From a virus: a DNA stretch of 64,000 nt. The stretch covers positions 186,001 through 250,000 of the IMG/VR virus record IMGVR_UViG_3300034117_001582; one strand, given 5' to 3'. The notes under the pieces were generated by a model that had not been told where the DNA came from, did not search any database, and was given only the letters and a program-made list of their open reading frames with translations. Positions within the stretch are counted from its first letter, which is position 1, and each line of letters starts with the position of its first letter. This document shows positions 4,592 to 63,855 of the stretch, piece after piece. Both the position numbers and the translations under genes were made by a program.

Positions 4592-6517
4592 TTAAGCCGT
4601 TGGTTTTAACCCTATACCGCTAACGACATCTTGGACTTGTTTAAATTTCTCATCCATTTTAGTGGTAATATCTTTAATTGCCGGTTCGATTAACTTAGCA
4701 ACCTCTTGTTTAAATTTATTTTCATCCACACTTGCAAACATTAATCCTGAAATACCTTCTGTACCAAAACTTGTTTTGTAACCCTCCATCGCCTTTGTCG
4801 CAATCATTGCACTTAACTCATCAACTCTATTTTCTTTAATTGCTCTTTCAATAACATCTTCAGGAAGTTCTTCAAATGCTGTGAGAATCATATTATGCTC
4901 ATCTTCTTTATTTTTAACTTGGTCAGCAATTTTTTGACCCAATCTTGTTTTAATGTCCTTTAACACATTATTACCTTCAGCACCATACAATCCATTCATC
5001 ACATCCAAGAACGTTTCGTTAACGATTGTTTTATTGTAACCGGCACGTAATAACATTATTCTTTCCTCACGCAAAGTTGATTCAACAATTCTTTTTCTAT
5101 TTTTATTAATACCAACCAAAGAAAAATTATATCTTTTGTTAATTAATTTTTTTTCTTCTGAAATAATTTGTTTTTTTTCAATATGTTCAGAAACGACCTT
5201 TCTGATTGTATTAGATACTGACATAATCCTGTTTTCCTTATAAATATCTTTATTTTGTTCTAATGTGAATCTTAAACCAAATATTTTTAATTTAGAACCA
5301 ACATGTACCAATCTTTTTACCATTTGGTTTGCCCTTCTTGGGTATTTGTCTTTATATGTTAAAAAACACGACTCAACGTCTTGTCTTCTTTCAGTGATTG
5401 TCTCCTCACCACCTAAGGTATCAATAGTTTTTGAACCATCATTAACAAGTACCATATCATTATAAAAATCTCTTGTAAGTCTAATACACTGCCTTTCGGT
5501 AATGTCTTTTTGAGGTTTTGGAGGTTTTATTACAATTTTTTTAAGTTTAACTTCTATTTCGTTATTACTATTAAATTTTAAATTATATCTTTTTTTAACG
5601 GAAATATACCCTTGGTTGGTTACTTTAACAACTATTTTATCAATATCTTTAACTTCGTGTGTAACTCCACCTTTACCTGATATCAACGGGGTTGTTTCAT
5701 CGTCTCCGTAAACCTGTATATCAGAACCCATCAAAGGATTATCATTTTCATCAATAACGGAAACTTTAAAGGGTGTGGTTGTTTTGATTTTAAAATTTAC
5801 AACATTTTCATAACCCTTACGTATAATTAATTTTTTTTCAGAATTAGGGTTGTCCTCATCTCCCTTACTCATCATAGAGTTATTTAACTTGATGGTTTTT
5901 TCTATATTCTCTTTAATGTTAAAATACTTAACACCAACAGTAATGTTTAACAGTTCACCACTAGCCTCCGCATCGAATACGGGGTATTTTGTTTTATCTA
6001 AAATTATGTTAGATAACATACCATTATTATCGGTTACGTTATTTCCAAATTCAATATCAGTACGTTTATACTTTATGGTTATTGTCGCATTTGGTATAGG
6101 GGAATTAAACTCATCATTAACCTGAACAGATAATGATGTTATATCAAATGTTGTTTTTACTATTACCTCCTCAACGTTTTGTACGTCCCTAAACGTAAAG
6201 TCTTGATTATAAACTTTAGGTTGGGATAAATCAATATTCTCCACAAGATCTTCATACCCCTCATTTTTATTTGTTACTTTATATGTGTATACCCCTAATG
6301 GGATATTTTCAATTTTAAAGAAACCATTTTCGTCAGATGTCGCACCTTTAATTAATTTTTCGTTTTGAAATAATTTTACTTGTGAATTTGGAGATTTACT
6401 TGCTTTATATTTTACATAACCTTGAAGTGTAGCAAATCCATCTTCCTCGTTTAATAAACGATGAAGGGATGAAATTTGTTTTTTTTCAGTTTCAGTAAGG
6501 ATTAATTTTCTTAACAT
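4592..6517 (-). CDS. Multi-Ig-like (carboxypeptidase regulatory-like) domain protein with N-terminal tag
   Basis: 641 residues. The opening LILTETEKKQISSLHRLLNE matches the tag class, with an L-N-E site. Residues ~29-110 form a carboxypeptidase-regulatory-like/CnaB-type beta sandwich (GxV...ATSDENGFFKIENIPLGVY). Two related sandwiches follow at ~127-215 and ~250-330. Residues ~345-641 are alpha-helical and charged, ending in a coiled-coil-like tail. Such Ig-like domains are common as carbohydrate-binding or scaffold modules in virion proteins; the role here is inferred. Its start lies 2 nt from the stop of the upstream 1031-residue gene, so the two are likely co-translated. Confidence 0.75.
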   Translation of the reverse strand: MLRKLILTETEKKQISSLHRLLNEEDGFATLQGYVKYKASKSPNSQVKLFQNEKLIKGATSDENGFFKIENIPLGVYTYKVTNKNEGYEDLVENIDLSQPKVYNQDFTFRDVQNVEEVIVKTTFDITSLSVQVNDEFNSPIPNATITIKYKRTDIEFGNNVTDNNGMLSNIILDKTKYPVFDAEASGELLNITVGVKYFNIKENIEKTIKLNNSMMSKGDEDNPNSEKKLIIRKGYENVVNFKIKTTTPFKVSVIDENDNPLMGSDIQVYGDDETTPLISGKGGVTHEVKDIDKIVVKVTNQGYISVKKRYNLKFNSNNEIEVKLKKIVIKPPKPQKDITERQCIRLTRDFYNDMVLVNDGSKTIDTLGGEETITERRQDVESCFLTYKDKYPRRANQMVKRLVHVGSKLKIFGLRFTLEQNKDIYKENRIMSVSNTIRKVVSEHIEKKQIISEEKKLINKRYNFSLVGINKNRKRIVESTLREERIMLLRAGYNKTIVNETFLDVMNGLYGAEGNNVLKDIKTRLGQKIADQVKNKEDEHNMILTAFEELPEDVIERAIKENRVDELSAMIATKAMEGYKTSFGTEGISGLMFASVDENKFKQEVAKLIEPAIKDITTKMDEKFKQVQDVVSGIGLKPTA

Positions 6518-6519
6518 GT

Positions 6520-9500
6520 TTAAAAATTTCTCAAACCTAATTTACTTTCGTATTTGGTGTTACATTTATTTAAAATGTGATTAACCGTCATTTTTTGTCT
6601 TTCACTTAATTCGAATTCTTTTTTACCACTTTGTAACGACCTACAGAATCCTCTTTTAATCACTATCCTTGCAGAAAATTTAACTAAACTATTAAAGAAC
6701 TCTCTTGTTGGTTCTAATTTGTAAATAACAATCTTGTCGTTAAATATTGAATTAATCTCACTTGTGGTAAAATATTCTTTAAGTTCTTCAGGTGGAGTTT
6801 CAGTTGTCCAACCTTTTCCCATCTTTTCTCTTACTTTATCTCTTACCTTTTTTGGTAAGTCTTCAATACCTTCTTTTTCGTTTCTTTTAAGAACGTTTAT
6901 TGCCGACTCTTCTTTTTTTTTTAAGTCATCCTCCGATTTGGAGTTGACTTCAGTTTCTTTAGTTCGTGGTTCCTTTTTTTCTAAATCCATATTTGCCAAC
7001 TGATTTGGTGTATAATCACCTTTAACTAAAAACCAGTTTCCGTTTGCAGGCCTTGCAACTGAAAATATTTCCATCTCACCACGACTTTCTTTAATCGTTC
7101 TTAAAACTAATGCCAATCCTCTTGGTGTTGCTGATTCATGAATGTTTGCTAAGTCTTTTGTAAACATAATCTTAACAACATCTTCATGAGTGTCGATAAC
7201 TGCTCTAACAAATGAATCATCCTCATCGTATTTTTTTCTGTAATGATTAATTCTATCCATTACATCTTCCATTTTTATTTTTACTTCTTTATATTGGCCA
7301 GGATTTTTTTCATCCTGAGCTTTAAATGTAAACGTATCTTTCCAATGTTTGAAGTTATCTTCTCCAAATTTTTCTTTATTTCGTTCAGTTATCATAATAT
7401 TCGTTTTTTTGTATCTTGATTCATTCATATTACCACTAATAAATTCATCAAGACTAAATTCATATCCATCTTTTTCTGAATAAACAACCAAAGGCCTATC
7501 CTTACGTCTTGGGTTTGCTTTCAACGAATATGTGTTATTTTTATATAAAAACACAGGGTCTGAACTCTTATTATCTAAAGTGTCTATAGTCATAATTTTT
7601 TCTAATTCTTGAGCTTTAGGTATGTTGTCCCTATTTTGTACCAGACCAACTACCTGTAGTTTTCTCAATGTTAGTATTTCCATTTTTTTGGCATATTCTT
7701 TTGGGTGTTCCAAAGCATACGGCTTAACAACGTTATTATTATTATCATCATTATTTATTTCTTCAGTCTTTTTTTTAATTTTTTCTGCAGCATCGTCAGT
7801 AAAATACCATTTCACAAAGTTATCCACTTGTGTATTAAAAGGTATAACAAAATCAAAAATTTCAAAAAACCATTCCCCAAGAGTATCCGTTTCTCCGTTA
7901 AACATTAGTGCGAATGGGCCAAAAGTATCTTTTATATCGGACCACTCATTTTCTATTAAAGAACCTACAGGTGCTTTACAATACTTTGCATATGTTGAGT
8001 CTTCTACTAAATTTAGGTAACTGTTATCCCCTCCAACTTTAAAACCAAATAACTCAGATTCTTTATCACCAACCGTACTAAAAAAACACGACCATCCAAA
8101 CATTACAATAGATAAAGAAAAATTAATTGCTAACGGAATTAAAACATTAGCTCTGAACCATATTCTCATATACATGTCAAATACCGAGTCCATACCATAT
8201 CCAGAAATATATCTTTTTCCTTTTTTACCAAAAGTAAACCGGTTTAAAAGACTTCTTCTACTTTTGGCCATTTCTTCAACATATTCCTTAAAAGTACTTA
8301 AAGTACCCGTCAAACTATATTGCCACCATCTAGTTGCCCAACCAGAACTCGCTGCGTAAATTTTGCCAAAATAATCTTTAAACTTAGTTCCAAATGGATT
8401 TTTTAAAAAACTAAAAAAATCCTTAACTTTTGCCCATAACGCTTTGACTTCTTGTGTTCCAGTGGCTGCACTTTCTGTATCTAATTTTTCAAAAAATAGT
8501 TGCAATACGTTTAATTTTTCTTCACCCGTTCCAGGGATTACTTTTCCATTTACGTCTTTTCTAGATACATTTGCTTCTAACTCTTCTATTTTGCTTAAAA
8601 TGGTTTCTCTTAATTTATCATCAGATATTGAATTTTTTATTTTTGTTATAATATCATTATATAATGTAGTGTACGATTTGTCAGCAAATTCGTTAAATTG
8701 TTTCATTTTAATAACAAGATTTTTAATCCTATCTGCTAATAATTTTCCGGCATTAATATCTTTTACCGAACCTTGTTCAATACCAATTAAAAGGTCTGAA
8801 ATCTCTTGTTCTAAAACCGCCGCGTCTTTTTTAACTGATAAAAACACTAAATTTATTAATTCTGAAAATTGGTCTATTAAAAAGGGTGCCCCTCTAAGCC
8901 ACGTCATAATACTTTCCCACGCCCCTTGACCTTTTTTTACAGTTGGTATTATGATCTCCAATGACGCTTTATAAGGTTTTTCAAATAGCTCCTCTACCAC
9001 CTTACCTTCTTGTTCTGAAAAACCAAACAATTTTTTATATGTTGCAATAAATTTCTTTTTAATTACGTCCAAAGCCTGTTTTTTAACAAAATCACTATCT
9101 CCGGCAATTTGTTCCATTCTAGCCTTAACTTCCTTATTAAAATCTTGAACGACTTCTTTTGTAAGATTGTCAGCTGGATCGGCTAAGGCGGCTATTAAGT
9201 CTTCTTTCACCTCCGCACTAACAAAGTCTTCAACCCTATCATTTATTATTTTCCAATTATCAGTACCCATTTTTGACTCTAAAAAACTCATAATCTCTTC
9301 TATTGTTTTTCCAGCCCCAATCATTTCTTCAACTTTTGCAACCGCGGCTTTTCTAGCGGTTTCTTCCGCACCACTTTTAGCGGTTTTTCCAGCAACTTCT
9401 GAACGTGTATCACCAAACATTTTTAATATTGCTAACTGTCTTCTAGACGCCGCCTCTGCTCCCAACTCTCCGGTTTCTAAAACCATTCTCCAAATTGCGG

Positions 9501-9615
9501 TTCCAGCATCACCTCTACTTTCATTAATTAAATGTTTAATTGGCGTATTTTCCACAATGGGTAAATTAGACATACGTCTAAATCTTATTATTTCTTCTAA
9601 TAATTGTGCGTTCAT
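6520..9615 (-). CDS. Large tagged protein with a hydrophobic segment; candidate internal head/ejection protein
   Basis: 1031 residues, family not recognised. The N-terminus reads LLEEIIRFRRMSNLP and reaches an I-N-E site at residues 28-30. Residues ~35-370 are helical and Ala/Glu/Lys-rich. A strongly hydrophobic segment (VLIPLAINFSLSIVMFGWS) lies near residue 500. The C-terminal part is charged and mixed. Length, tag and one membrane-active segment fit a virion protein that enters or crosses the host membrane at infection; this is inference. It is the first gene of a run with the 641-residue gene. An ATAAATAC element (plus strand) stands 13 nt before the ATG. Confidence 0.65.
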   Translation of the reverse strand: MNAQLLEEIIRFRRMSNLPIVENTPIKHLINESRGDAGTAIWRMVLETGELGAEAASRRQLAILKMFGDTRSEVAGKTAKSGAEETARKAAVAKVEEMIGAGKTIEEIMSFLESKMGTDNWKIINDRVEDFVSAEVKEDLIAALADPADNLTKEVVQDFNKEVKARMEQIAGDSDFVKKQALDVIKKKFIATYKKLFGFSEQEGKVVEELFEKPYKASLEIIIPTVKKGQGAWESIMTWLRGAPFLIDQFSELINLVFLSVKKDAAVLEQEISDLLIGIEQGSVKDINAGKLLADRIKNLVIKMKQFNEFADKSYTTLYNDIITKIKNSISDDKLRETILSKIEELEANVSRKDVNGKVIPGTGEEKLNVLQLFFEKLDTESAATGTQEVKALWAKVKDFFSFLKNPFGTKFKDYFGKIYAASSGWATRWWQYSLTGTLSTFKEYVEEMAKSRRSLLNRFTFGKKGKRYISGYGMDSVFDMYMRIWFRANVLIPLAINFSLSIVMFGWSCFFSTVGDKESELFGFKVGGDNSYLNLVEDSTYAKYCKAPVGSLIENEWSDIKDTFGPFALMFNGETDTLGEWFFEIFDFVIPFNTQVDNFVKWYFTDDAAEKIKKKTEEINNDDNNNNVVKPYALEHPKEYAKKMEILTLRKLQVVGLVQNRDNIPKAQELEKIMTIDTLDNKSSDPVFLYKNNTYSLKANPRRKDRPLVVYSEKDGYEFSLDEFISGNMNESRYKKTNIMITERNKEKFGEDNFKHWKDTFTFKAQDEKNPGQYKEVKIKMEDVMDRINHYRKKYDEDDSFVRAVIDTHEDVVKIMFTKDLANIHESATPRGLALVLRTIKESRGEMEIFSVARPANGNWFLVKGDYTPNQLANMDLEKKEPRTKETEVNSKSEDDLKKKEESAINVLKRNEKEGIEDLPKKVRDKVREKMGKGWTTETPPEELKEYFTTSEINSIFNDKIVIYKLEPTREFFNSLVKFSARIVIKRGFCRSLQSGKKEFELSERQKMTVNHILNKCNTKYESKLGLRNF

Positions 9616-9628
9616 TTGTTTTTTATTT

Positions 9629-9640: not shown

Positions 9641-12277
9641 TTATCCTATAATGTAATTTGTTTTTAAAAATTTAACCCAATTACTTTCATTTTGTGCGTT
9701 TTGTTGGTTTTGTTGGTTTATTAACTTTTCATCCTCTCGAGCTTTCTTAATAATTTCTTCAAACTCCTTATCACTCACAACTTTTTGTTTTGTAAAGTCT
9801 GATATTTCTTTTTCTTTATCTTTTAATTTTTCTTCTTTTAATTTTTTAGTTACTTCAGGAGATTTCATAAATTCTATTATTTTTTTTAAATCCTCCTCGT
9901 TAATTGGTTGTTCTACTTGTTCTTTTGTTTTTTCCTTTTTTTCTTGGTTTGCCTTTTTATATGATGAGGTTTGGTATTGTTCAGGTATTGGTATACCTGG
10001 TCTCCAACCATTAAGAATAGCAGTCTTTAATAAATTATTGTCGTTAACACTACCATCACTCATAAATTCATTTTTTACAATTCCCCAAGAATCTTTACCA
10101 AGTATCCGTTCAACTACCGATTTTGGTGTTTCAGAGATTTTATTAATTTCATCTATACCTGCGTTATAATCTTGACCTAAAGCGATATACCCACCTAAAG
10201 TCGCACCAGCCTTAACCAAAGGAATACCAACAGACTTAAGTCCTTTAGCTGAAAAATTTAAAGCGGCATTTGTATATTCGGCAATTGTTTTTTTACCAAA
10301 TTTTGCGTCACCTACCGACATAACTTTAGCTGCCCCTTCCTGAATCATTCTTTGTATTTTTGATCCATATTCAGCAATTACTTTTAATGCTGCTTGTATT
10401 TCAGGTTTTAACATTAGTTTAGTGTATGCCGCCAATTCTTTCATCGTCATCGTGGTAACACTTTTAACTAAAAAGTCTGGACAAGCCATTATAAATTTAA
10501 TCGCTTGTTTTACTCCTTCCCCACCTTCTCTAAATACGCCTTTTACTACTGACGAGTCTATTGCAAACGGTATAAAAGCAAATAAAACCGATAGTCCGGC
10601 CATTCTAGTATTACCTTCACTAAGATATATTCCAGCATCTAATAAATCTATGGCCGCACTTAATAACGCAGCCTCAGTTAATCCCAAACCCAGTGCTGCC
10701 GCTTCAGTCATACCAGCAAATCTCATGGCTAAACCAACGCCTTGTAATCCTGGTATTGCAATAGCAACTAAACTAGCCAACATTAAAATGTCGTGTATAT
10801 CCCAACTTTGCAACCAATCAACAAAATTATCACCCATTTTACCATATTCCCAAAAATCACCATGCCATGGTTTTTTAACTTCAGGTTTTAATGGTGCACT
10901 ATAACCAAATTGTAACTGTACCGCTTTAAATTCACCGATATATGTCTCGTAAGTGTTTAAATCGGAAAACTGTTGGGTCATATTTTGTCTTATCATATCC
11001 ATTTCCCAATCTATATCCTTATAACCCTCAATATTTGACGGTATGTCTATTTTTTCTGGTGTCGGTTCAAATCCTGATTCAAAATTAGGTAAATCTAAAT
11101 CTTGACCTGTGTATAATGGATCAACACGTAGAGCATCGGCCTCTCTACCCCTATTTATTGCTTTTTCTTTAGCAATTTCATTTCTTTTTATATTTTCATA
11201 ATACCGATATTTTTCCTTTTTTCTTTCATCAAATTTAAGATATTTGGCATAGTTTTCTTTTGTTATACCATTAGGGAATTCTACATGGTAATATTCCTTT
11301 TTTTTATCTACTAATTCTTTATCTTTTTTTTTGTTAATATTAGCAACTTCATTTGTGTATTGAGTATGTCTATTGGCGATTTGTTTAGATGACGTGTCAA
11401 TTAAATTTAAATAATATGGTCTTGTAGATTTAATAAAGTTATCCATTTCTTTATTTCCGGTGGCAACTCCACCACTACTAGGGCTTTTTAAAGTCGCGCC
11501 TAAAGCCCCCATTGGGTCATATTCCACATTGCTATTTCTTATCCCCGTACCTGATTGATAGGAATTTATTCGATTTGCAGCCTCTTCTTTCTCCGCTAAA
11601 TCTTTATTAGATTGGTTTATTTGTGCTTGTAACCTACCAATGTCTGAATCTCTATTTTTTTTTAAAAGATTAAGAGTCGCTTGGTATTTATTTGTTATGT
11701 TATTACACTCCGCCAAATAAATGGGATATTCTTCATCAGCAAACCCCTCTGGTGTTTTTCTTCTGTCGGTATCATAATTAAATATCGGTAACCCATCCTT
11801 ACCTTTAATATAAAACGGGTTATTTTTATAAAATTCGTCACCAGGAGCATTATCTTTAAACCATTTTTTCATATATTCAGAATGTTCTTTTTCTTGAACA
11901 TCGTAACAACCAAGATTACCATTATATCTTCCCCATACCTCACATGACGGAGAACCAACACTAGTAAAAACCTTCCCCTCATTAACAACAGGAGGATAAG
12001 ATTCTGGATAACCCTTTAAATTTATACTCTCCCACCAATAACTTTTATTTAATGGGTTTAATATTGAATTTGGATTATTTGTTAATTTTATTTTATCTAT
12101 TCTATTTTGTAGTTCACGTTTAGCACTATTTTTATAGTCTTCACCATATGCTAATGAAGATATAATCTTTTTTAATTCATCGTTACTTACTGATGTGAAT
12201 TGATTAGGGGTGTCTCCAGTAAAGTTTACAACTTCATTTAAAATATTTTCTAACATTATATGTTTTTTATTATTCAC
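9641..12277 (-). CDS. Large tagged protein with amphipathic/hydrophobic centre; candidate internal head/ejection protein
   Basis: 878 residues, family not recognised. The start is either 12277 (overlapping the upstream gene by 8 nt) or Met-8 at 12256, which gives the compact tag MLENILNE. Residues ~190-380 are charged and helical with coiled-coil character (KKKDKELVDKKKEYY). Residues ~490-640 carry a Gly/Ala/Leu-rich region with two or three long hydrophobic helices (ILMLASLVAIAIPG, MAGLSVLFAFIPFAI), similar in feel to pore-forming or membrane-inserting proteins. The C-terminus is Lys/Glu-rich. A role in DNA ejection is inferred from size, tag and neighbours. Confidence 0.65.
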   Translation of the reverse strand: MNNKKHIMLENILNEVVNFTGDTPNQFTSVSNDELKKIISSLAYGEDYKNSAKRELQNRIDKIKLTNNPNSILNPLNKSYWWESINLKGYPESYPPVVNEGKVFTSVGSPSCEVWGRYNGNLGCYDVQEKEHSEYMKKWFKDNAPGDEFYKNNPFYIKGKDGLPIFNYDTDRRKTPEGFADEEYPIYLAECNNITNKYQATLNLLKKNRDSDIGRLQAQINQSNKDLAEKEEAANRINSYQSGTGIRNSNVEYDPMGALGATLKSPSSGGVATGNKEMDNFIKSTRPYYLNLIDTSSKQIANRHTQYTNEVANINKKKDKELVDKKKEYYHVEFPNGITKENYAKYLKFDERKKEKYRYYENIKRNEIAKEKAINRGREADALRVDPLYTGQDLDLPNFESGFEPTPEKIDIPSNIEGYKDIDWEMDMIRQNMTQQFSDLNTYETYIGEFKAVQLQFGYSAPLKPEVKKPWHGDFWEYGKMGDNFVDWLQSWDIHDILMLASLVAIAIPGLQGVGLAMRFAGMTEAAALGLGLTEAALLSAAIDLLDAGIYLSEGNTRMAGLSVLFAFIPFAIDSSVVKGVFREGGEGVKQAIKFIMACPDFLVKSVTTMTMKELAAYTKLMLKPEIQAALKVIAEYGSKIQRMIQEGAAKVMSVGDAKFGKKTIAEYTNAALNFSAKGLKSVGIPLVKAGATLGGYIALGQDYNAGIDEINKISETPKSVVERILGKDSWGIVKNEFMSDGSVNDNNLLKTAILNGWRPGIPIPEQYQTSSYKKANQEKKEKTKEQVEQPINEEDLKKIIEFMKSPEVTKKLKEEKLKDKEKEISDFTKQKVVSDKEFEEIIKKAREDEKLINQQNQQNAQNESNWVKFLKTNYIIG

Positions 12278-13295
12278 CGATAAATAAATCGGGTTGGTTT
12301 ATTTTTTTCATGTAATCCCCACCTGTATTTGATTCAAAATAGTTAGAAACCTCAGAAGGTTTAACACCACCTTTAGGTAGTTTTTTAAAACTTTTATTGA
12401 ATTCATACAAATAGTGTATTTTTTTATTATATTCTTTGGATCCCTCAATTGACCCCCCCTTACTATAGTTAGATAAATCGGAATCTAATTTTGAAAAAAT
12501 AGTTTTAAATGTACCATTTTTAACCATATCATATGGTAGATATATTACCAATCCTTTGTATTTTTTATTTTGTAACTCAGATAATGTCGCAGCCTTAAAA
12601 ACTAATTGATTATCTTTTAATGTTTTTTCTAACATTTGTAATAAGTTTATTACATCTAAACTATTTTCGGCATATATGTATATTTTCCACCCACTATAAT
12701 TTTTATCTCCATTATTAAAATTATAAAAATCTAAACTATCTGAAATGTGACTACTGTATTCTAAAGCAAATCCAGTTAAATCGTAGTCATCCCATTGGTC
12801 TTTTATATTGCTATTATAATAGTCTAAAATAATTGAATATGCGTTTTTAAAATCTTCTTCGTATAATTTACCTATAAATTCAGTAATACTATATATTATT
12901 CCTGCATATTTAAATTTAGGTAGTTCAACATCTAACTTAAGTTTATCACCATATTCATTTATAAGTGTTAAATACTTGTCTGTTATTAATTTTTTATATT
13001 CATCACTTTGATAAAATGATGACATAATTTCATTATATGGTTCTAAATTTTTAAGTTTTGCGATTTTAAATAAAATACCCAACTCGGTTTCGGTTAAGAT
13101 TGGTGAATTAATTATCTCTTCTAATGTTTTACCAGTTTTGTTTATTAATTTAGTTATTTCTTCTTCAGTTACGTCATCTACGGTATTTGCAACATTCTCG
13201 TTATCCTCATTAATATGTTTTTTTACGCTAATTAATGGAATACCCATTAACCTTCTGTAATTATTTATTTCTAATAATAAATTATTTTCTTTCAT
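12270..13295 (-). CDS. Tagged hypothetical protein
   Basis: 341 residues. The tag reads LLLEINNYRRLMGIPL and ends at an I-N-E site (KKHINE) near residue 28. It shares the LLExI..(F/Y)RR(L/M) pattern with the 1031- and 534-residue proteins. The rest is mixed alpha/beta with many Tyr and Lys and no motif I recognise. Overlaps on both sides (4 nt upstream, 8 nt downstream) indicate translational coupling inside the virion-protein block. Confidence 0.75.
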   Translation of the reverse strand: MKENNLLLEINNYRRLMGIPLISVKKHINEDNENVANTVDDVTEEEITKLINKTGKTLEEIINSPILTETELGILFKIAKLKNLEPYNEIMSSFYQSDEYKKLITDKYLTLINEYGDKLKLDVELPKFKYAGIIYSITEFIGKLYEEDFKNAYSIILDYYNSNIKDQWDDYDLTGFALEYSSHISDSLDFYNFNNGDKNYSGWKIYIYAENSLDVINLLQMLEKTLKDNQLVFKAATLSELQNKKYKGLVIYLPYDMVKNGTFKTIFSKLDSDLSNYSKGGSIEGSKEYNKKIHYLYEFNKSFKKLPKGGVKPSEVSNYFESNTGGDYMKKINQPDLFIGE

Positions 13296-13627
13296 ACCTT
13301 ATAATTATTACCTGTTGGCCCCATGGTTCTTCCTGATGCCCATTTTTCACCAGCTTTACCTAACATATTACCTTTACCTCTACCAGTTTTATCCTCTCTT
13401 TTAGCACTTGTTATTGGATTACCTGGTCCTCTTCCTACTCCCGAGTCCCATGGCGTAATACTTGCTCCTGTGTCTGATGAGGTGTCTGTAGGTGCATCAC
13501 CTTCTTCATTAACCTCTTCTTCATTAACCTCTTCTTCATCCAATTCCGTTTCATCAATTTCTGCAGCATCTTTAACTTCCATAAGGAATTTAATTCTTTT
13601 AATATTATCTAAAAATTTTTTACTCAT
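13292..13627 (-). CDS. Small acidic, low-complexity tagged protein
   Basis: 111 residues. The opening KKFLDNIKRIKFLME ends in an L-M-E site. An acidic tract of EEEVNEE repeats (residues ~27-43) follows, then a Gly/Lys/Arg-rich basic tail (TGRGKGNMLGKAGEKWASGRT). Acid-then-base architecture with no globular core suggests a disordered or DNA-associated virion protein, but no family is recognised. It overlaps both neighbours by 4 nt. Confidence 0.75.
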   Translation of the reverse strand: MSKKFLDNIKRIKFLMEVKDAAEIDETELDEEEVNEEEVNEEGDAPTDTSSDTGASITPWDSGVGRGPGNPITSAKREDKTGRGKGNMLGKAGEKWASGRTMGPTGNNYKV

Positions 13628-53297: not shown

Positions 53298-53705
53298 TTA
53301 TCTATTGTATGGCCTAAACCTTGATGGGTTTGATTTTATTGCTGACTTTGGGAATTTTAATCCAACACCCTGTTGTCTTGCGTTCTTTAATGTTCTTGCG
53401 TATTCGGTTAGTTCTTCATTTCCCATATCATCAATAGCCTTTACTAATTTATGGCATTTCTCTGATACCTCACCCTTTTCGTGATCAGTTATTGATAATT
53501 TTACTTTGTTGTAATTTATTTTAATATCAGGATGATGATTTTGTGATTCGGCAATCTTCGCAACTTTATTAACAAATTCCATTGATTCATTAAAATCTTT
53601 GAATTTAAAAGTTCTTTCTAATTTTTGCTCTGAATCACTCCAACCTTTGGATTCATTCATATTTATCATTTCCTGTATTCTTCTTATGTTCTCTTGTAGG
53701 TTCAT
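53298..53705 (-). CDS. phhB: Pterin-4a-carbinolamine dehydratase with N-terminal tag
   Basis: 135 residues. The tag MNLQENIRRIQEMINMNES is followed by an intact dehydratase fold (~22-95): LERTFKFKDFNESMEFVNKV, the signature SQNHHPDIKINYNKVKLSI, and ITDHEKGEVSEKCHKLVKAI. The double His plus the later His are the catalytic set. A ~35-residue basic C-terminal extension is not part of the family. The enzyme dehydrates 4a-hydroxytetrahydropterin in pterin recycling; it can also act as a dimerisation cofactor (DCoH). Use by a phage, with a tag, is unusual. Confidence 0.9.
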   Translation of the reverse strand: MNLQENIRRIQEMINMNESKGWSDSEQKLERTFKFKDFNESMEFVNKVAKIAESQNHHPDIKINYNKVKLSITDHEKGEVSEKCHKLVKAIDDMGNEELTEYARTLKNARQQGVGLKFPKSAIKSNPSRFRPYNR

Positions 53706-56630: not shown

Positions 56631-57140
56631 TTATTTTTGACACCCAGGACTTTTGGGGTTCATTTTTTTACAATGGGTTCCTGTATAATAATCCCAACCT
56701 TTTTCAGAGTGACCAATTGATGTTTTTTCAAAAATATTTGGTTCAAAAAAAGTATTTAATTTATTAATAATTTCATTATATACTTTTATAACTTCGCCAT
56801 CCCATTTTTTATTTTTTTCAGCATCAAATTTTACACTTTCCATACTTGATTTAAAATAACCAACTAAACCAACTAATTTAGGAACGTCATCAATAGTTTC
56901 ACCTTCTTTTAAATTTTCATATTTTTCTTTATCGTAGTATTTACCATCAACTTTAACATAAAAATTTAACATACGTTCCACATTGTCTTTTAACTCTAAA
57001 ATTGCGCTTATATGTGTTTTTTCATTATTATCACTTTTTAAGTTTAATTTATTTTTTATATATTCTAAACTGTTAGTGTTTTCCTCAGATAAGGTTATCA
57101 TCATTGATTTAATCCTTTGTATGTTTTCTTGTAGGTTCAT
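56631..57140 (-). CDS. Tagged hypothetical protein
   Basis: 169 residues. The tag MNLQENIQRIKSMMITLSEE ends L-S-E. The body is helical and Lys/Glu-rich (LELKDNVERMLNFYVKVDGK), with a C-terminal CKKMNPKSPGCQK reminiscent of a zinc knuckle or disulfide. Unrecognised. A weak hairpin with T-rich flank lies downstream near 56571-56600. Confidence 0.65.
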   Translation of the reverse strand: MNLQENIQRIKSMMITLSEENTNSLEYIKNKLNLKSDNNEKTHISAILELKDNVERMLNFYVKVDGKYYDKEKYENLKEGETIDDVPKLVGLVGYFKSSMESVKFDAEKNKKWDGEVIKVYNEIINKLNTFFEPNIFEKTSIGHSEKGWDYYTGTHCKKMNPKSPGCQK

Positions 57141-57189: not shown

Positions 57190-58260
57190 TTAATCCCAAT
57201 CACCATTTTTTATTGTTTCCATCATCCAAGAAATGATTGATAATAACTCTTCATTAGTTAGGTTGTTAATAGTTGTTATGTATTGGTCGTTTTGTTCAGT
57301 ATGTCCGTATTCATCAATATCAAATTCCATTATCTCAACAGCAATTTGGTCGCTGTCTTGAACCATTATATCGTCAACATATTTGTTATTACTTAATTGT
57401 ATTTCATATCCACTAAGTATTCCACTATTATCTCCCCATTTATTACCATTTATTAAAACAAAATCCCTAATATATTGTTTTAATACTTCTTTAGGGTTAT
57501 TCATGTTTTTTAACGCCGAACTAATTTGACGAATGTCTAACCCTGACATGTTTATAAAATCATATAAACCATACTCATCTATAAGTTCCGTTAAAGATTG
57601 TTTTTTATTTTCTGATTCATTCATGGGTTTCCATTTGCAATTTGGTTTTGATATGGATCCAACATATAAATTATCTATTGGCAAATAACCTTTAATAGCG
57701 TTTTTAACATCATTTCTTAAATTTTCTCCATGTCGCGCTCTTCCAACAAAACTAAAAAATAAATCATTTAGTTCTTCCGACCCAAACACCAAATAAATCA
57801 CATACATATCGTCTTCGAATGTTACTCTAATATCGCAAACACAATCTTCTTTTTTGAATGGTTCTATAAGTTCTTTAATTATGTTAAGATACTTTGGTTG
57901 TTTTTCTTCGGATTCATTTATAACGTTTCCTTCACTATCGTATTTTAGTTTAATGGCATCCAAACGAAAATCTGCACTGTTATCTTGGTCATTGTGCCAA
58001 TATGGAATAAGTTTAATACCTGTATATTCATAGATTTTACGTTGTATTTGTTCTGCAAAATAAGTCTCTTCATTACCAGCATATTCATCGTTATCAAAAT
58101 AAACTCTTATCATTGGTTTATTTTCATATTTTTTAATATCAATAAAACTAACCTCATCAAAAAACTCATGAATCATTCTTGTCACCAACTTAAGTTTTTT
58201 CTCTTCAGATTTGTCAACTGATTCCCTTAATATTTTTTTTATGGATTCTTGTAGGGTCAT
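57190..58260 (-). CDS. Tagged three-module protein with internal (I/M)NES junctions
   Basis: 356 residues. The tag MTLQESIKKILRES is L-R-E-S. Module 1 (~20-110: LVTRMIHEFFDEVSF, MIRVYFDNDEY, GIKLIPYWHND) is paralogous to the N-terminus of the 531-residue protein. INESEEK (114-120) marks the junction to module 2 (~123-210: EPFKKEDCVCDIRVTFEDD). MNESENK (213-219) marks the junction to module 3 (helical, to the end). The regular junction text suggests either processing sites or old gene fusions. Overlaps the next gene by 4 nt. Confidence 0.7.
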   Translation of the reverse strand: MTLQESIKKILRESVDKSEEKKLKLVTRMIHEFFDEVSFIDIKKYENKPMIRVYFDNDEYAGNEETYFAEQIQRKIYEYTGIKLIPYWHNDQDNSADFRLDAIKLKYDSEGNVINESEEKQPKYLNIIKELIEPFKKEDCVCDIRVTFEDDMYVIYLVFGSEELNDLFFSFVGRARHGENLRNDVKNAIKGYLPIDNLYVGSISKPNCKWKPMNESENKKQSLTELIDEYGLYDFINMSGLDIRQISSALKNMNNPKEVLKQYIRDFVLINGNKWGDNSGILSGYEIQLSNNKYVDDIMVQDSDQIAVEIMEFDIDEYGHTEQNDQYITTINNLTNEELLSIISWMMETIKNGDWD

Positions 58261-58712
58261 ATAAAAATTATATTAGTGGCTTTACAACCAAACTTTTCAT
58301 TTATTAACTCTAATAACTCAATTTTCCAATTACCTTTACGTCCCAAGTAGTTCTCAATTTCTTCAGCAAACTGTTCGTAAAATATTATAAAATTAAAATT
58401 TGGATTTTTAACATCAGGCATTTCATAACATACTTCAGGTAACTCACCCATTACTTCTTTAAAGTATTTACCATTATCGTCATAGTTATTACCATCAACC
58501 AATTTGAATAAATAATCATCATAATTATTTTTTGGAAGAACAAACCCAACAGCATATGGGTCACAACAAACACCCATTCCACAATTATATTGAGCCCAAT
58601 CATAATAGATATCATCAAATCCATCAAACAACATATTAAGTAAATTGCTTAAAACGGGTTTAATATTGGTTTCTTCCCTTAATATTTTTCTTATGGATTC
58701 TTGTTGGTTCAT
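58257..58712 (-). CDS. Small tagged protein related to the adjacent modules
   Basis: 151 residues. The tag MNQQESIRKILREE is L-R-E. The body opens LSNLLNMLFDGFDDIYYDW like module 1 of its neighbours, with a Cys cluster (NCGMGVCCDPYAVG) not found there. It reads as a single-module, divergent member of the family; overlaps downstream by 4 nt and abuts the 531-residue gene. Confidence 0.65.
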   Translation of the reverse strand: MNQQESIRKILREETNIKPVLSNLLNMLFDGFDDIYYDWAQYNCGMGVCCDPYAVGFVLPKNNYDDYLFKLVDGNNYDDNGKYFKEVMGELPEVCYEMPDVKNPNFNFIIFYEQFAEEIENYLGRKGNWKIELLELINEKFGCKATNIIFI

Positions 58713-60308
58713 CTATATATTATTTTTAACCATATTATAAAAGAACTCACTGATTTTATCAGGAGTTGTTATGTTCTGTTGTTTTAATTGTGACCGATAA
58801 AACCCTACCATCGCAATTATTTGTGACATAGGCGCGTTTTTATATAATGATGGAGGAATAAACCCTTTATCTAATAATCCTTGTTTTTGGAGTTGTTTAA
58901 TCTTTTTTCCCGCAAACTCATCCGCAACTTCTTCAGTATGTTTCATTAGGTTTGCTGCCTCCTCAACACTTATATCACCAAGATAACACTCATACATTAA
59001 ATCTTCACCATATTTTTTAAATTGGTACTGATGTGCAGTCTCGTGAAATATAATAAACAATAGATATTCTAACCTTTGGTTTAACGCCATTTTATTTATT
59101 AACACACCATCATGTAAAGCAACTCCCATAGCCGGCATCTTGAAATTGGCAAATTCTATTTTTTTGCAGTTTGATTGTGAAATAAAATCTTTTACCTTTT
59201 CTATTAACTCATCAGACATTTCATGTCTTGATGTAATATCATCTATTAAGGTGTTAACACCATCAGTTTCTTCCTTTAATACTTTTCTTATGGATTCTTT
59301 TAGGTATATGTTTTTCTTTCCACAATCGTTAACTGTTTTGTAATACGTATCAACCGCCTCGTTTGTGTAATTATAAATTACCTGCCAAATCTCATCCAAT
59401 ATGTTATCATACATTTGTTTAATCCCTTGAGTTTGTGGAAAAAGTTTTGTTCCATGTCCACCAATAAATGTTACGGTAACACTTACAAATTTAAATGTAT
59501 TATTACCCAAAGTATTTCTTTCATTAGGTACCTTAACTTCAAACCCACATATTACGTGGTCATATTCAGGTAGTATTATATTATTTAATACATTCTCAAT
59601 CATTTCTTTTTGTGACTCTTCTTTGGATTCTCTTATCATATCTCTGCCAGTACCTTCACGCATTAATTCTATTGCTTCTGATGGTATGTTATCAAACGTA
59701 ACTATATGTTTCTTAGATGATTCAAAATGTCTATCTTTATACCACTTAACATTAGGTATTAATTCTGTATTGATTGTCCATACATCGTCGTCATATGTAG
59801 AATCAAACCACGCTCGTTTATTTGTCGAGTTGGTTGCAAATATTGCAGGTATACATTTTTCACCATATCCTGCGTATATTTTATAACATTCACCAGCAAT
59901 TGCCTTTAACCCTTCATTTGATATTCTATCTCTAAACTTTGGATTGGATTTATGTATAACAATTTTGTTTGGTGTAATTTCTTTTCCTGCTGGGCTATAA
60001 TTTTCATTAAGTTCTTCCTCATATCTTTCAGTATCTAAATAAAAATCAGGTTCCTTTTTTAATTCTGTTCGTTTCTTGTAGTCATACCAAGGAACAACAT
60101 TTAAACCGGTAAACTTATTTATAGTATCACATATTTCTGAACTCTCTAACTCTTCCCATGCATCATAGTAAACCATAATCTCATTTCTTTTGGCGATGTA
60201 TTCTAAATCTATAATATTATCAAACATGGTATATATAAAATTCTTAACTAACTCAAATTTATTAGTCTCCTCTTTTAATACTTTTTTTATGTTCTTTTTT
60301 ATGTTCAT
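58713..60308 (-). CDS. Multi-module tagged protein: module 1 + ART-like + zincin-like, with a complete internal tag
   Basis: 531 residues. The tag MNIKKNIKKVLKEE ends L-K-E. Module 1 (~20-95) matches the start of the 57190 protein. L-N-E lies at 100-102. Residues ~113-222 (KIVIHKSNPKFRDRISNEGL, AIFATNSTNKRAWFDS) resemble the ADP-ribosyltransferase/KptA-like fold by pattern only. I-R-E-S at 225-228 precedes a module like module 2 of the neighbour. A full tag, IYLKESIRKVLKEET, is at 334-348. The last part is a zincin: HETAH at 422-426 with EEVADEFA (~459-466) as probable third-ligand region, M78/SprT-like. Looks like two fused cargo genes. Confidence 0.7.
   Translation of the reverse strand: MNIKKNIKKVLKEETNKFELVKNFIYTMFDNIIDLEYIAKRNEIMVYYDAWEELESSEICDTINKFTGLNVVPWYDYKKRTELKKEPDFYLDTERYEEELNENYSPAGKEITPNKIVIHKSNPKFRDRISNEGLKAIAGECYKIYAGYGEKCIPAIFATNSTNKRAWFDSTYDDDVWTINTELIPNVKWYKDRHFESSKKHIVTFDNIPSEAIELMREGTGRDMIRESKEESQKEMIENVLNNIILPEYDHVICGFEVKVPNERNTLGNNTFKFVSVTVTFIGGHGTKLFPQTQGIKQMYDNILDEIWQVIYNYTNEAVDTYYKTVNDCGKKNIYLKESIRKVLKEETDGVNTLIDDITSRHEMSDELIEKVKDFISQSNCKKIEFANFKMPAMGVALHDGVLINKMALNQRLEYLLFIIFHETAHQYQFKKYGEDLMYECYLGDISVEEAANLMKHTEEVADEFAGKKIKQLQKQGLLDKGFIPPSLYKNAPMSQIIAMVGFYRSQLKQQNITTPDKISEFFYNMVKNNI
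59265..59309 (-). other. Internal cargo tag inside the 531-residue gene
   Basis: These bases encode IYLKESIRKVLKEET, which has the form of a terminal tag except that the first codon is ATA (Ile) instead of ATG. A start-codon change after fusion would explain it. Confidence 0.7.
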
Positions 60309-60309
60309 G

Positions 60310-60633
60310 TTACATTACTTGGGATAAAAACTTTTTAATTGTTCTAACCACTTTTTGTCTATATGGATTGTTTTCATTTGAAAAATTATCAATTGGTTCT
60401 GTAACGTTATTATCTTCTAACATATTCAATATCAATCTTACTTGTCTTTTTTTATTATCAAAAGTTCCAATATTATAATAATCGTCATCTACTTTGAAAT
60501 AAACTTTTTTAAATCTAATCTGGTCATCAATATTTATTTCTTCAACTTTATATCTTCGCATAAGAAAATTCATAACTTTTTTGTCAATGTCCTCAGTTTC
60601 TTCTTTCAATATGTGTCTAATTAGTTTTCTCAT
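60310..60633 (-). CDS. Small tagged hypothetical protein
   Basis: 107 residues. The tag MRKLIRHILKEE ends L-K-E. A basic body follows (MRRYKVEEINIDDQIRFKKV). Not recognised. The ATG base overlaps the stop of the gene upstream, a tight coupling shared by all genes from 57.2 to 63.9 kb. Confidence 0.65.
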   Translation of the reverse strand: MRKLIRHILKEETEDIDKKVMNFLMRRYKVEEINIDDQIRFKKVYFKVDDDYYNIGTFDNKKRQVRLILNMLEDNNVTEPIDNFSNENNPYRQKVVRTIKKFLSQVM

Positions 60634-61076
60634 TAAATAAAAATATAATCATCAACTTTTAATCCTTTATATCCTGTCACAGATCCATACGTATAACTCT
60701 CTTCTAATTTTAATTCGTCAGGTATATATTCATACATCTCAAACACATATTCACCTAATTTTTGAGACTCTATATAGGGGTCAAATTTACCTTCATAATC
60801 AAATGGAGTAAGGACATATGCTATTTGTTTGTTTTTAATATATTCAAGGTTATACATCCGTTTTTTTTCCAAACCATAAAATTCTTTTACCTTTTCATAT
60901 TCAACAACTAAATCAATATAAATACTTGTCCTATATTCCTCATAGTCGTTATGTAATTGCCAACCAACAACAAATGGAAACTCGTTCTTTAATCCGTTAA
61001 CAACAATATCAATACCCTTATCTATTTGTTGTTTAGATACCTCTTCATTTAATATGTGTTTAATAAGTCCTCTCAT
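60633..61076 (-). CDS. Small tagged hypothetical protein
   Basis: 147 residues. The tag MRGLIKHILNEE ends L-N-E. The beta-rich body (YEEYRTSIYIDLVVEYEKVK) contains AYVLTPFDYEGKFDPYIES. Not recognised. Confidence 0.65.
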   Translation of the reverse strand: MRGLIKHILNEEVSKQQIDKGIDIVVNGLKNEFPFVVGWQLHNDYEEYRTSIYIDLVVEYEKVKEFYGLEKKRMYNLEYIKNKQIAYVLTPFDYEGKFDPYIESQKLGEYVFEMYEYIPDELKLEESYTYGSVTGYKGLKVDDYIFI

Positions 61077-61078
61077 TA

Positions 61079-62140
61079 TTATGCTTTTAACGTTTCTACT
61101 ATATCCTGAATGTCAGACAAATCATAACTACGACTTATGTTGTTTGGTCGTTGTGCAGTCTTTCCGTTTATTTCCCCCAACTGAACATAGGTTTGAGGCA
61201 TCCTATGTTCATTACTATCCAATTTAACAACTTTTACTGAAGACTCATCATTAAAAGAATCATATAAAAAATCTTTAAATTTATGATTCTCATCTTCCGT
61301 TAATTTATTTTCATTATAAATAATATTAACTATTGGCCAACTATTAGACATCCACCTATTCCATCCGGCATCGATAGTTTTAAATGGTAAAACAATTGAT
61401 GGTTCGTCCCCATCCGTTGTCCAAGATACCTCAACCAAACCTTTTTGGTTTTCAATTCTTTCAACCATTTCGGGGTCGTCTTTGAATATTTTTTTTAAAT
61501 TGTCTAATCCTCCAACCAATTTTGCAGCATAAAATAATCCATCCGTTTTTATTAGATTAATAATGTCCGAATTATTACTTTCATTTAAACTTTCAGATTC
61601 GCCATAAAGTTTGTCGTGTATTCTCTCTACATCTTCTATTGAAAAAGAGTCATCATAATCATGTATATCGACATCATTACCGTTTATTTGTGTAACATCA
61701 AAATAAGTGGACTTCCCAAAATCAAATGATTTAGTTTTTAACTTTCCTACAGTGTTGTCATTTTGAATTACCGAAATAATGGTTATCAGTTTGTTTTTTT
61801 CCACCGAAGTTAATTTACTGTCATCATAAATAAGATTTAATTCAGGCCAAGAATGTGTGCCCCATATATTTTTTCCAATACCTATTATTTCATATTTAAT
61901 TGGAAATACAACAAATTTATCACTTTTAAATTTCCCATCGTAATACATTTCAAAATCAACAACACCTGTTAATTCATCTAATATTTCAGAAACTTCGAGG
62001 TCATCTTTGAATATACTTTTAAGATTATCCAGTCCACCAACCATTTCAGCAGCATCAAAGATATTATTATCTTCGATAAATTGTTTCAGCTCTTGTTGGA
62101 GTCTATTTTCTTTTAATATGTGTTTAATAAGTTCTCTCAT
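61079..62140 (-). CDS. Tagged protein with two repeated domains joined at LNES
   Basis: 353 residues. The tag MRELIKHILKE ends L-K-E. Two homologous halves occupy residues ~20-180 and ~195-353: IFDAAEMVGGLDNLKSIFKD is answered by LFYAAKLVGGLDNLKKIFKD, and THSWPELNLIYDDSKLT by SNSWPIVNIIYNENKLT. They are joined at ESLNESNN (LNE at 185-187). An internal duplication with a candidate processing site exactly between the copies. Function unknown. Confidence 0.75.
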   Translation of the reverse strand: MRELIKHILKENRLQQELKQFIEDNNIFDAAEMVGGLDNLKSIFKDDLEVSEILDELTGVVDFEMYYDGKFKSDKFVVFPIKYEIIGIGKNIWGTHSWPELNLIYDDSKLTSVEKNKLITIISVIQNDNTVGKLKTKSFDFGKSTYFDVTQINGNDVDIHDYDDSFSIEDVERIHDKLYGESESLNESNNSDIINLIKTDGLFYAAKLVGGLDNLKKIFKDDPEMVERIENQKGLVEVSWTTDGDEPSIVLPFKTIDAGWNRWMSNSWPIVNIIYNENKLTEDENHKFKDFLYDSFNDESSVKVVKLDSNEHRMPQTYVQLGEINGKTAQRPNNISRSYDLSDIQDIVETLKA

Positions 62141-62142
62141 TA

Positions 62143-62793
62143 CTATCTACTTCCTCTTACTCTATCTATTTCGACCTCACGAAGTTTATCTACATATAAT
62201 TTATCAATATAACCAGGAGTTTCTTTTTCTTTTTTAATTAAATCGTTTGCTTTCCATAAAGTATTTTTGACAATAAAATCAATCATTTCATCATTTGTAA
62301 CTCCTTCAGGTTTTGAAACAGGAGGAACGCAAATTTGAGTTTTTTCTGGATGTACAGAAAATTCATCTATTGTTATATCATTTCTTCCCATTTTATTTTG
62401 GATTGTTTCTAAAAATGTGTCTTCAAACCAGTCTTGAATAACATATTTTAAATAGTTTTTTCTTACGGGAATGTCTGAATTTAATTCATCAAATATATCT
62501 TTAGGCATTTGTAATTCACCACTTTCAAAATCTCTTTCTTCCGTTTTTCTTTTATCATCAAAAACATTTTCATCATCATGGAAGAATAATATAACACTCA
62601 TTATTTCTTTTCCGTCGTTACACCATTCAAAATCATGTCTTGTTTCCCAAGATTTGTCATGATACATTTGTGCGCCATCAACATAGTCGTTTAACCACCT
62701 ATAGATAAGTTTATCCACACTTGGTGTTGGCTTTGAGTATTTCTTATTAACCTCTTCTTTTAATATATGTCTAATTAAATTTCTATTCTCCAT
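62143..62793 (-). CDS. Tagged hypothetical protein
   Basis: 216 residues from Met at 62793. That start is chosen because MENRNLIRHILKEE is the tag and the 11-nt overlap with the upstream gene fits the coupling pattern; the frame extends to 62814. Mixed alpha/beta, acidic (FFHDDENVFDDKRKTEERDF), with a conserved-looking HPEKTQICVPPVSKPEG. Unrecognised. Confidence 0.65.
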   Translation of the reverse strand: MENRNLIRHILKEEVNKKYSKPTPSVDKLIYRWLNDYVDGAQMYHDKSWETRHDFEWCNDGKEIMSVILFFHDDENVFDDKRKTEERDFESGELQMPKDIFDELNSDIPVRKNYLKYVIQDWFEDTFLETIQNKMGRNDITIDEFSVHPEKTQICVPPVSKPEGVTNDEMIDFIVKNTLWKANDLIKKEKETPGYIDKLYVDKLREVEIDRVRGSR

Positions 62794-63214
62794 CATCATA
62801 TTCTTCTTGTACAAATTGGTATTTCATATTCATTGAATAGTCACCTCCCGCACTCCATTCACAACCAATAAACCAAAACATCAAGTTATTATGTTTACCT
62901 TTCTTTTCCCCAAAAGACCCATTACTTGTAAATGAATAATTAAGTAAAATTTTATTCAATTCTTTATCGACTGTTTTTAGTTGGTCGGTAAACGAAAAAA
63001 GGTCAGGGTCTTCACACCAAGATGTTATTAATAATTCACCCTCAATTTCGTTACTTCTGCTAATATAATTAATATTCGCAGTTTCTATATTTGTTATTAA
63101 ACTTGAATCTACATTACTTTGTAATATCCACGCAATTTTTTGAGCAGATCTAATAAACTTTTCTTTAAGATCTGAAGTATCTTCTTTTAATACTTTTCTA
63201 ATTATTTCTTTCAT
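62783..63214 (-). CDS. Tagged hypothetical protein
   Basis: 143 residues. The tag MKEIIRKVLKED ends L-K-E. The body has LITSWCEDPDLFSFTDQLKT and NNLMFWFIGCEWSAGGDYS. No recognised family. Overlaps both neighbours. Confidence 0.65.
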   Translation of the reverse strand: MKEIIRKVLKEDTSDLKEKFIRSAQKIAWILQSNVDSSLITNIETANINYISRSNEIEGELLITSWCEDPDLFSFTDQLKTVDKELNKILLNYSFTSNGSFGEKKGKHNNLMFWFIGCEWSAGGDYSMNMKYQFVQEEYDDGE

Positions 63215-63855
63215 TTTACTGGCTTACCGTATTTGTAGAATTTCTGTTGTATGTTTATTGTGCCCTTACATCCACCTGTCTTCTTAGTCCCATTATCATT
63301 AAAACATTTAGGTATGGTTTTATTAAAATAATAAACCATTTTAGGCTCCCCTGAATTGCCTGAGTGCATGGATTGTAATTGTCCATTAACCGCAGACTCA
63401 CCTCCACCAGCACTTCCTCTACTATCGAATTGCTCGTAAGTATATCCATCAGTACTAGGACCAATAGTAACTTCCCAATTTACCGTTAAAGTATTTGGGT
63501 CAATAAACACATACATGTCTTTAATATCAACGGCCTTAACATTTTTATTTTTAAATTTATAATCTTTAATACCATTTTGTACTATCGTATTAATTCTACC
63601 ACCAAACCCATCGGACCGTCTTCTGTGAAATGAATGTAATGCGTCGTAAACTCCTGATTTACCAGCAGCACTATAACTTCCTTTTATTACTTCATCTGAT
63701 GAAAATCCTTTTGATGGGTCTAACCATAGTGAACCTTTAAGGTCTTTAGTCGGGTCAGGTTTAATATTAGCCCCTTTTTTCTTTTCGTTATCCTCTAATA
63801 TATTAGGATTTAAACCAACATATTCTTTTAATACTTTTCTAATTAAATCTTTCAT
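63211..63855 (-). CDS. Tagged hypothetical protein, first gene of the 57-64 kb run
   Basis: 214 residues. The tag MKDLIRKVLKEY ends L-K-E. Gly/Ser-rich segments (SRGSAGGGESAVNGQLQSMH) and two C-terminal Cys (PKCFNDNG, GGCKG) are visible; the rest is beta-rich. Function unknown. GATATTTATAACT stands directly before the ATG, the only such element in this run, so the whole run may be one transcript. Confidence 0.65.
   Translation of the reverse strand: MKDLIRKVLKEYVGLNPNILEDNEKKKGANIKPDPTKDLKGSLWLDPSKGFSSDEVIKGSYSAAGKSGVYDALHSFHRRRSDGFGGRINTIVQNGIKDYKFKNKNVKAVDIKDMYVFIDPNTLTVNWEVTIGPSTDGYTYEQFDSRGSAGGGESAVNGQLQSMHSGNSGEPKMVYYFNKTIPKCFNDNGTKKTGGCKGTINIQQKFYKYGKPVK

Follow-up and report, generated by a model that had tools for sequence, protein, structure and literature searches.

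The 291,867-base viral record IMGVR_UViG_3300034117_001582 was examined in a stretch of 64,000 nucleotides (bases 186001-250000, hereafter the window), in which 52 genes start with leader-like N-termini of five classes (A-E; Table 1). Based on sequence comparison and on analogy with the internal proteins of phage T4, we consider it likely that these leaders are capsid-targeting propeptides removed by an S77 prohead protease; much of the cargo would then probably be ejected. The system is best read as a T4-type capsid-targeting/propeptide system of modular build and greatly enlarged scale, carried by giant Bacteroidetes-type phages.

N-terminal leaders in the window and in related phages

An original prediction, made from the window's sequence alone, held that more than 40 unrelated proteins carry common N-terminal tags at 4592-63855. 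The 52 tagged proteins found here include only five pairs with related bodies, in agreement with that claim, and the leaders do occur in the region named; however, they are not confined to it and are found across the whole genome. All 52 tagged open reading frames (ORFs) are open, with 50 starting at ATG, one at GTG, and one at TTG. Consensus sequences are M-K-K-I-I-R-L-T-E-S-D-L-x-R-I-V-K-R-V-I-N-E for class A, M-N-L-Q-E-N-I-R-R-I-L-R-E plus a short form, M-R-x-L-I-R-H-I-L-K-E, for class B, M-K-I-I-I-T-E-S-Q-Y-x-x-L for class C, M-N-L-Q-E-N-I-R-R-I-Q-x-M-M-G... for class D, and I-L-T-E-x-E-K-x-x-I-x-x-L-H... for class E. Strict hidden Markov model (HMM) criteria tag 36 of the 76 genes in the window and 57 of the 335 in the genome (about 17%); the remaining window leaders, assigned by eye, are less certain.

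The similarity is specific to N-termini. When N-terminal 35-mers of all 332 proteins were compared, 63 pairs scored >=50, and interior or shuffled controls gave none. Across a comparison set of five related phages (270-304 kb), 225 N-terminal HMM matches were obtained at E<0.05 (57, 59, 39, 36, and 34 per genome), and all five classes were present in each phage. At E<1e-2, the five HMMs gave 58, 47, 59, 31, and 30 N-terminal matches, whereas 4,484 interior segments gave 3, 2, 0, 1, and 0 and reversed N-termini gave none. Unrelated bodies stand behind the leaders: 221 tagged proteins fall into 156 body families with only the N-terminal leader in common. A tblastn search of INPHARED with a 23-amino acid (aa) tag and one tagged protein as queries returned no match; short queries are not findable in this way.

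Leader ends and leader swapping

The tags had been predicted to end in (I/L)-x-E. An [ILV]xE ending is present at residues 8-48 in 48 of the 52 window leaders (50 if M is permitted at P3), but some class C leaders have no clear [IL]xE. Such an ending falls within residues 10-35 in 89% of tagged proteins; the figure is 44% for untagged proteins and 45% for the interiors of tagged ones. Since a bare (I/L)xE count discriminates weakly (63% of window proteins vs. 32% of interior windows), we relied on leader similarity and orthologs. Class A, with 44 distinct leaders, has high information content through residue 22 and a collapse beyond it. Its final motif consists of I, V, or L at position 20, a variable position 21, and E at position 22 (43 of 44 leaders). 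Class B ends in [LI]-x-E in all 42 cases.

Orthologs placed the end of the leader at the same motif even where the leader itself had been exchanged. In the APIDY family (window gene 24854-26131), all 31 distinct leaders end in [ILV]xE directly before a conserved APID block; 16 matches outside this pattern include fragments lacking the N-terminus and a few junction variants, e.g., LIQE/API (a slash marks the predicted cut throughout). Similarly, the leaders of a DHH-like family (genome 20091-21671) are of class A, B, or C or a minimal seven residues, and 45 of 45 distinct leaders end in [IL]xE before SG(I/L)R. Within the window, the genes at 39895-41235 and 41321-41947 have a common body and different leaders. 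When homology boundaries were located without the motif, [ILV]xE proved to be present at the boundary in every member of 6 of 22 tagged families vs. 1 of 109 untagged families. Since the five classes are interchangeable on the same body, the leader would be a loading label and not part of the protein's activity.

Two further observations concern these families. The DHH-like phosphoesterase has a leader in every relative examined and is possibly a constant virion component. An AlphaFold2 model of the APIDY protein of the window was poor (mean predicted local distance difference test score 61, predicted template modeling score 0.50); it has helices at residues 4-20 and 25-39, and the predicted cut lies in a low-confidence coil (residues 40-50). 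A Foldseek search with this model gave nothing significant.

Head protease and capsid propeptide

A gp21-like prohead protease had been suggested as something to seek in the rest of the genome, and an S77 protease was indeed found in a T4-like head module with gp20 and gp23, on the record's minus strand and outside the window (151022-159139; Table 1). The protease can be aligned with T4 gp21 in its His (ELNHP) and Ser (GVSSRG) regions. The capsid propeptide (~61 aa) ends in LINE followed by A or S in 80 of 80 relatives, i.e., at the same (I/L)xE site as the leaders, and T4 propeptides examined as controls are alike (IPII/IPIII, FIAE10/A; IPI, TITE19/A; gp23, LTE65/A; gp24, LRE10/S). Two genes adjoining the capsid gene bear leaders across relatives; the first has a class B leader (LIxxILRE) in some and RLTE in others, and the second has an [IL]xE/AT ending in most. 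The S77 protease is present in 15 of 21 tag-bearing records. The other six have neither S77 nor gp23 above the cut-off and, lacking gp23, are probably headless fragments.

Taken together, the S77 protease gene with gp20/gp23, the (I/L)xE site of the capsid propeptide, the junction kept through leader swaps, the leaders beside the capsid gene, and the likeness to T4 propeptides strongly support, at the level of sequence, the predicted trimming of the leaders by the head protease. They also lend good support to the predicted routing of tagged proteins into the head.

Alternative explanations

A different reading accepts cutting by the head protease but takes the tagged proteins to have minor roles in head structure or assembly, as T4 gp24 does, and not to be injected. 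We consider this unlikely, although leaders do occur on genes adjoining the capsid gene, the widely conserved APIDY and DHH tagged families look core rather than accessory, and T4 gp24 bears a class B-like leader (MAKINELLRE/S). However, the tagged bodies are mostly accessory, with homologs elsewhere among the five phages for 34% of tagged vs. 67% of untagged genes; small enzymes with no expected structural role (a GNAT acetyltransferase, a pterin-4a-carbinolamine dehydratase, and a PAP2 phosphatase) are among them, and a set of ~60 minor head proteins in one phage would be out of the ordinary. Other tagged bodies are two lysozymes, HEXXH proteins (three in the window), DUF5856, and DUF6576, and most have no Pfam match. 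The domains named in the original prediction were thus recovered in the case of GNAT, PAP2, pterin dehydratase, lysin, and HEXXH, but not in that of DUF5872 (Pfam gave DUF5856/DUF6576) or ParB, for which there was no match.

It is improbable that the tags instead stay uncleaved and dock the proteins on a different partner of phage or host origin (membrane, replication compartment, or RNA polymerase), with the terminal E belonging to a helix. Classes A, C, and E have a conserved strand-TE-helix look that would suit this explanation, as would the existence of minimal leaders, but conservation stops sharply at the motif with P2 variable, unrelated leaders on one body always keep the (I/L)xE junction, and the capsid propeptide ends at the same site.

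Loading into the tail tube and not the head, in the manner of the N-terminal signals of contractile injection systems, is very improbable. Phage tails and injection systems are related, and two of the tagged proteins are lysins. However, none of the 79 genes at 54-149.7 kb, tail and replication genes included, is tagged (P=4e-8), the motif is the one expected for the head protease and seen at the end of the capsid propeptide, and it is in the head cluster that linked tagged genes are located. In addition, we know of no protease trimming of contractile injection system N-terminal signals.

Least probable of all is a nucleic-acid feature (a translation-initiation enhancer or recombination hotspot) spread by DNA copying, an origin largely refuted by codon analysis: identical codons are slightly enriched in class A and clearly so in class B (0.81 vs. 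0.55 expected), and the upstream DNA of these two classes is somewhat similar, so that some recent copying is indicated in places, but class C codons at identical residues are randomized (agreement 0.574 vs. 0.563 expected) with upstream DNA as unlike as that of random genes, conservation ends at the protease motif, and leaders unlike in both DNA and protein still end alike.

Comparison with known phages and spread among relatives

In T4, the prohead protease cuts at L/I-X-E and capsid-targeting sequences (CTS) are 10-19 residues long (PMC9026906); IPI-IPIII have only the leader in common and inhibit different restriction enzymes (PMC12373910). The present system resembles T4 IPI-IPIII and Alt in its short N-terminal propeptides, with predicted cutting after L/I-X-E by an S77 protease (gp21), in the common leader on unrelated bodies, in the acidic scaffold core, and in the accessory, variable nature of the genes (PMC9026906, PMC3012670, PMC12373910). 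However, T4 has three IPs plus Alt and one main CTS, whereas 34-59 genes per genome and five interchangeable classes occur here, the leaders reach ~40 aa, and the hosts differ. This suggests dozens of packed, perhaps injected, proteins in this phage group as opposed to a few in T4. No sequence similarity to the T4 CTS MKTYQEFIAE was found, and class B resembles the T4 gp24 leader MAKINELLRE only in a general way.

The phiKZ-like jumbo phages phiKZ and SPN3US likewise have large heads and many internal, ejected proteins, with propeptides that end in x-x-E and are processed by gp175/gp245, and SPN3US has paralogs with a common N-terminal 15-mer (PMC5694885). Their proteases, however, belong to the S80 family and their motif is AxE or SxE, eight SPN3US proteins have been found cleaved, and their leaders do not serve as modular labels for dozens of unrelated proteins. 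Maturation of this S80 type does not describe the present phage, in which, with no separate S80 search made, the protease matches S77 and the sites are (I/L/V)xE.

The present phage also has the conserved terminase/portal/protease/capsid region of the bS21 phages of freshwater Bacteroidetes, in which there is an opposite-strand bS21-like ORF and genomes reach up to 331 kb; we found no mention of a leader system in the paper describing them (PMC9723584). A bS21-like ribosomal protein ORF lies on the opposite strand within the head cluster here (genome 156088-156282), as in those phages. Among the cultured phages closest in capsid protein is Flavobacterium phage vB_FspM_immuto_2-6A (MW353175), which has a T4-like head with an S77 protease, a capsid propeptide ending in IVSE/A, and three leader sets of its own, ending in (I/L)xE, on unrelated bodies. 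The predicted leader ends in this phage include LINE/G (gp3), LLKE/G (gp194), ILKE/N (gp195), and IITE/S (gp41 and gp188), and its S77 protease is gp201. It differs in having a 160-kb genome, fewer leaders (nine found), and other leader sequences, and in being cultured. Neither the tag sequences nor an earlier description of the leader system was found in the literature searched.

The RLTE leader was confirmed at 492 or more places in viral contigs, and at only four loci among ~85,000 bacterial and archaeal genomes, with a pattern that differed from that of the viral scan. RLTE-like leaders of a longer form (RLTESDLHRIVKESVKRVxxE) were seen in a few contigs of gut Bacteroidales metagenome-assembled genomes (MAGs; L176:9624-10582, L178:114-1538, L177, and L179). 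In two of these contigs the tagged genes stand beside housekeeping genes. Since one contig has a run of N beside its tagged genes and the other has them near its end, the MAG leaders may stem from pieces of phage, from misassembly, or from small elements that have integrated.

Proposed mechanism and implications

Under the capsid-targeting propeptide explanation, the short, mostly basic, amphipathic leader helix would dock on a very acidic scaffold core during head assembly. The leaders are amphipathic with a net charge of +1.3, and the protein in the scaffold position has a net charge of -70 to -89 (T4 gp22, -28), which fits such docking. The S77 protease would then cut after the E of (I/L)-x-E, as site conservation suggests, and the DNA-filled head would retain the mature body. 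If the cargo behaves as T4 internal proteins do, much of it would probably be ejected into the next host cell. More tentatively, although quite conceivably, five or more interchangeable leader classes could constitute a modular loading code that routes ~35-60 proteins into one head, giving each virion an effector payload as broad as that of a bacterial secretion system; docking may differ among the classes in scaffold site or in stage of assembly.

Several observations weigh against this explanation. Two lysozyme-type enzymes carry leaders, namely a PG_binding + GH19 protein (window 13624-15228, class D-like) and a T4-type lysozyme + LysM protein (genome 257849-258772, class C); these are unexpected as DNA-associated cargo and not typical of T4-style cargo. 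The end of class C is less sharp, with some members lacking a clear (I/L)xE after the core, and the minimal seven-residue leaders of some orthologs (MKKLIKE/) contain little besides the cut site. In the scaffold, (I/L)xE counts exceed those of shuffles in just one of the five genomes. An S77 search in two tag-bearing Bacteroidales MAGs detected none, but since the control was likewise silent, absence is not established. Finally, no virion proteome of this phage group or of a Flavobacterium jumbo phage was found in the literature searched.

For most jumbo-phage genes, no function is known. A leader that can be read from sequence alone would place hundreds of "hypothetical" proteins in one class of head-packaged, probably injected, first-contact proteins, i.e., candidates for anti-defense or host takeover, and would extend to a widespread phage group what has been described for a few proteins of T4. 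The cultured Flavobacterium phage makes the leader system testable now, and the interchangeable leaders point to new tags by which proteins could be loaded into phage heads.

Table 1. Tagged genes of the window and, in genome coordinates, genes of the head module.
Coordinates	Strand	Class	Leader	Protein or remark	Length (aa)
4592-6517	-	E	MLRKLILTETEKKQISSLHRLLNE/	CarboxypepD_reg-like	641
6520-9615	-	D-like	MNAQLLEEIIRFRRMSNLPIVENTPIKHLINE/S	Assigned by eye, no HMM match	1031
9641-12256	-	Weak candidate	MLENILNE/V		871
12270-13295	-	D-like	MKENNLLLEINNYRRLMGIPLISVKKHINE/		341
13292-13627	-	D-like	MSKKFLDNIKRIKFLMEVKDAAEIDE/		111
13624-15228	-	D-like	MKTILHEIKNFKRLSNLKE/	PG_binding + GH19 lysin	534
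15533-16024	-	E-like		No clear (I/L)xE	163
20973-21512	-	A	MAIKKIRLTESQLTSLIKRIVE/		179
21559-21999	-	Leader-like	MITKKELIRKGFNTSRLMSE/	DUF5856	146
22036-22629	+	D	MLLKEEISRIKKIMNLSE/G	PAP2	197
22618-23178	-	C	MKIIITESQYRFLVE/	DUF6576	186
24551-24844	-	A	MSRRITESEIKRITNLVINE/S		97
24854-26131	-		40 aa, ending RLNE/APIDYEGPERM		425
26131-26505	-	D-like	MKKNVVNELNEMKYLFGYERGRVISE/		124
27356-27673	-	Leader-like		Candidate end FLME or IAEE	105
29153-29617	-	D	MNLYESINRIKSIMYE/S	GNAT acetyltransferase	154
30371-32137	-	D-like	MNNRLLEDIKRFKLMVNYDSNVTLSE/		588
32828-34675	-	E	MKKNLFEVSHKEKAKILEMHYNAAGKRFLTE/		615
34933-35910	-	C/E-like	...ILITKKEIEEIKNQYTETLKIVTE/		325
37752-38447	-	C	MKIIITENQHRLLRRVSE/		231
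38444-39385	-	C	MKIILTEDQYGQLTE/		313
39393-39893	-	B	MILKENIRKILKE/E		166
39895-41235	-		MNINEYRNRFYNLLESKLGNVKPLICE/	Body homologous to 41321-41947	
41321-41947	-	A	MSRIIRLTESDLSRIVRRVINE/	GTG start	208
41952-42218	-	A	MRLNERDLSRIVRRVIKE/		88
42294-42707	-	E	MNKFIISEEEKKHIMGLYE/		137
42792-43022	-	A	MKKIIRLTERDLTRLVKRIVSE/		76
43250-43687	-	C-like	MDVIITKSQYQKIV	No clear (I/L)xE; paralog of 43736-44146	
43736-44146	-	C	MKIVITVSQYQKIV	No clear (I/L)xE at core	
44226-44660	-	A	MARIIRLTERDLTRIVKRTIME/		144
45157-45594	-	A	MARIVRLTERDLSRIVRRVLKE/		145
45675-46121	-	A	MARIIRLTESDLARIVKRIINE/		148
46217-46621	-	C	MKIIITEDQYNLLFE/S		134
46694-47299	-	E-like	...STLGDVKPLISE/	Late site	201
47386-47745	-	A	MKKTIRLTESDITRIVKQVISE/S		119
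47802-48176	-	A	MKKVIRLTESELIEMVRRVITE/		124
50104-51225	-	D	MNLHENIRRIQSIMGVIKE/	HEXXH; body paralog of 53720-54787	373
51286-51987	-	B	MNLQENIRRVLRE/E		233
51984-52715	-	D	MNLQENIQRIKSMMGLNE/		243
52979-53296	-	A	MKKVIRLTESDLILLVKRVINE/		105
53298-53705	-	D	MNLQENIRRIQEMINMNE/S	Pterin-4a-carbinolamine dehydratase	135
53720-54787	-	D	MNLQENIRRIQEMMGVIKE/	HEXXH	355
56631-57140	-	D	MNLQENIQRIKSMMITLSE/		169
57190-58260	-	B	MTLQESIKKILRE/S		356
58257-58712	-	B	MNQQESIRKILRE/E		151
58713-60308	-	B	MNIKKNIKKVLKE/E	HEXXH	531
60310-60633	-	B	MRKLIRHILKE/E		107
60633-61076	-	B	MRGLIKHILNE/E		147
61079-62140	-	B	MRELIKHILKE/N		353
62143-62799	-	B	MMMENRNLIRHILKE/E		218
62783-63214	-	B	MKEIIRKVLKE/D		143
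63211-63855	-	B	MKDLIRKVLKE/Y		214
Genome 157328-159139	-			Portal gp20	
Genome 154799-155509	-			S77 (gp21-type) protease, E=5.5e-26	
Genome 152871-154421	-			Acidic protein in scaffold position (position and composition only, no family match)	
Genome 151022-152830	-			gp23-type capsid protein	

Other features of the window

The ORF list gave no such leader for the type IX secretion system protein, CAP proteins, UvrC, FKBP, or glycosyltransferase, which the original prediction had set apart as untagged. The proteins encoded at 16755-19214, 29710-30366, and 32238-32771 have apparent secretion signals and no leader. A 1012-aa ORF of (VP[FLDES]) repeats at 832-3870 is an antisense shadow of a repetitive tail-fiber gene on the minus strand (genome 181308-190067).

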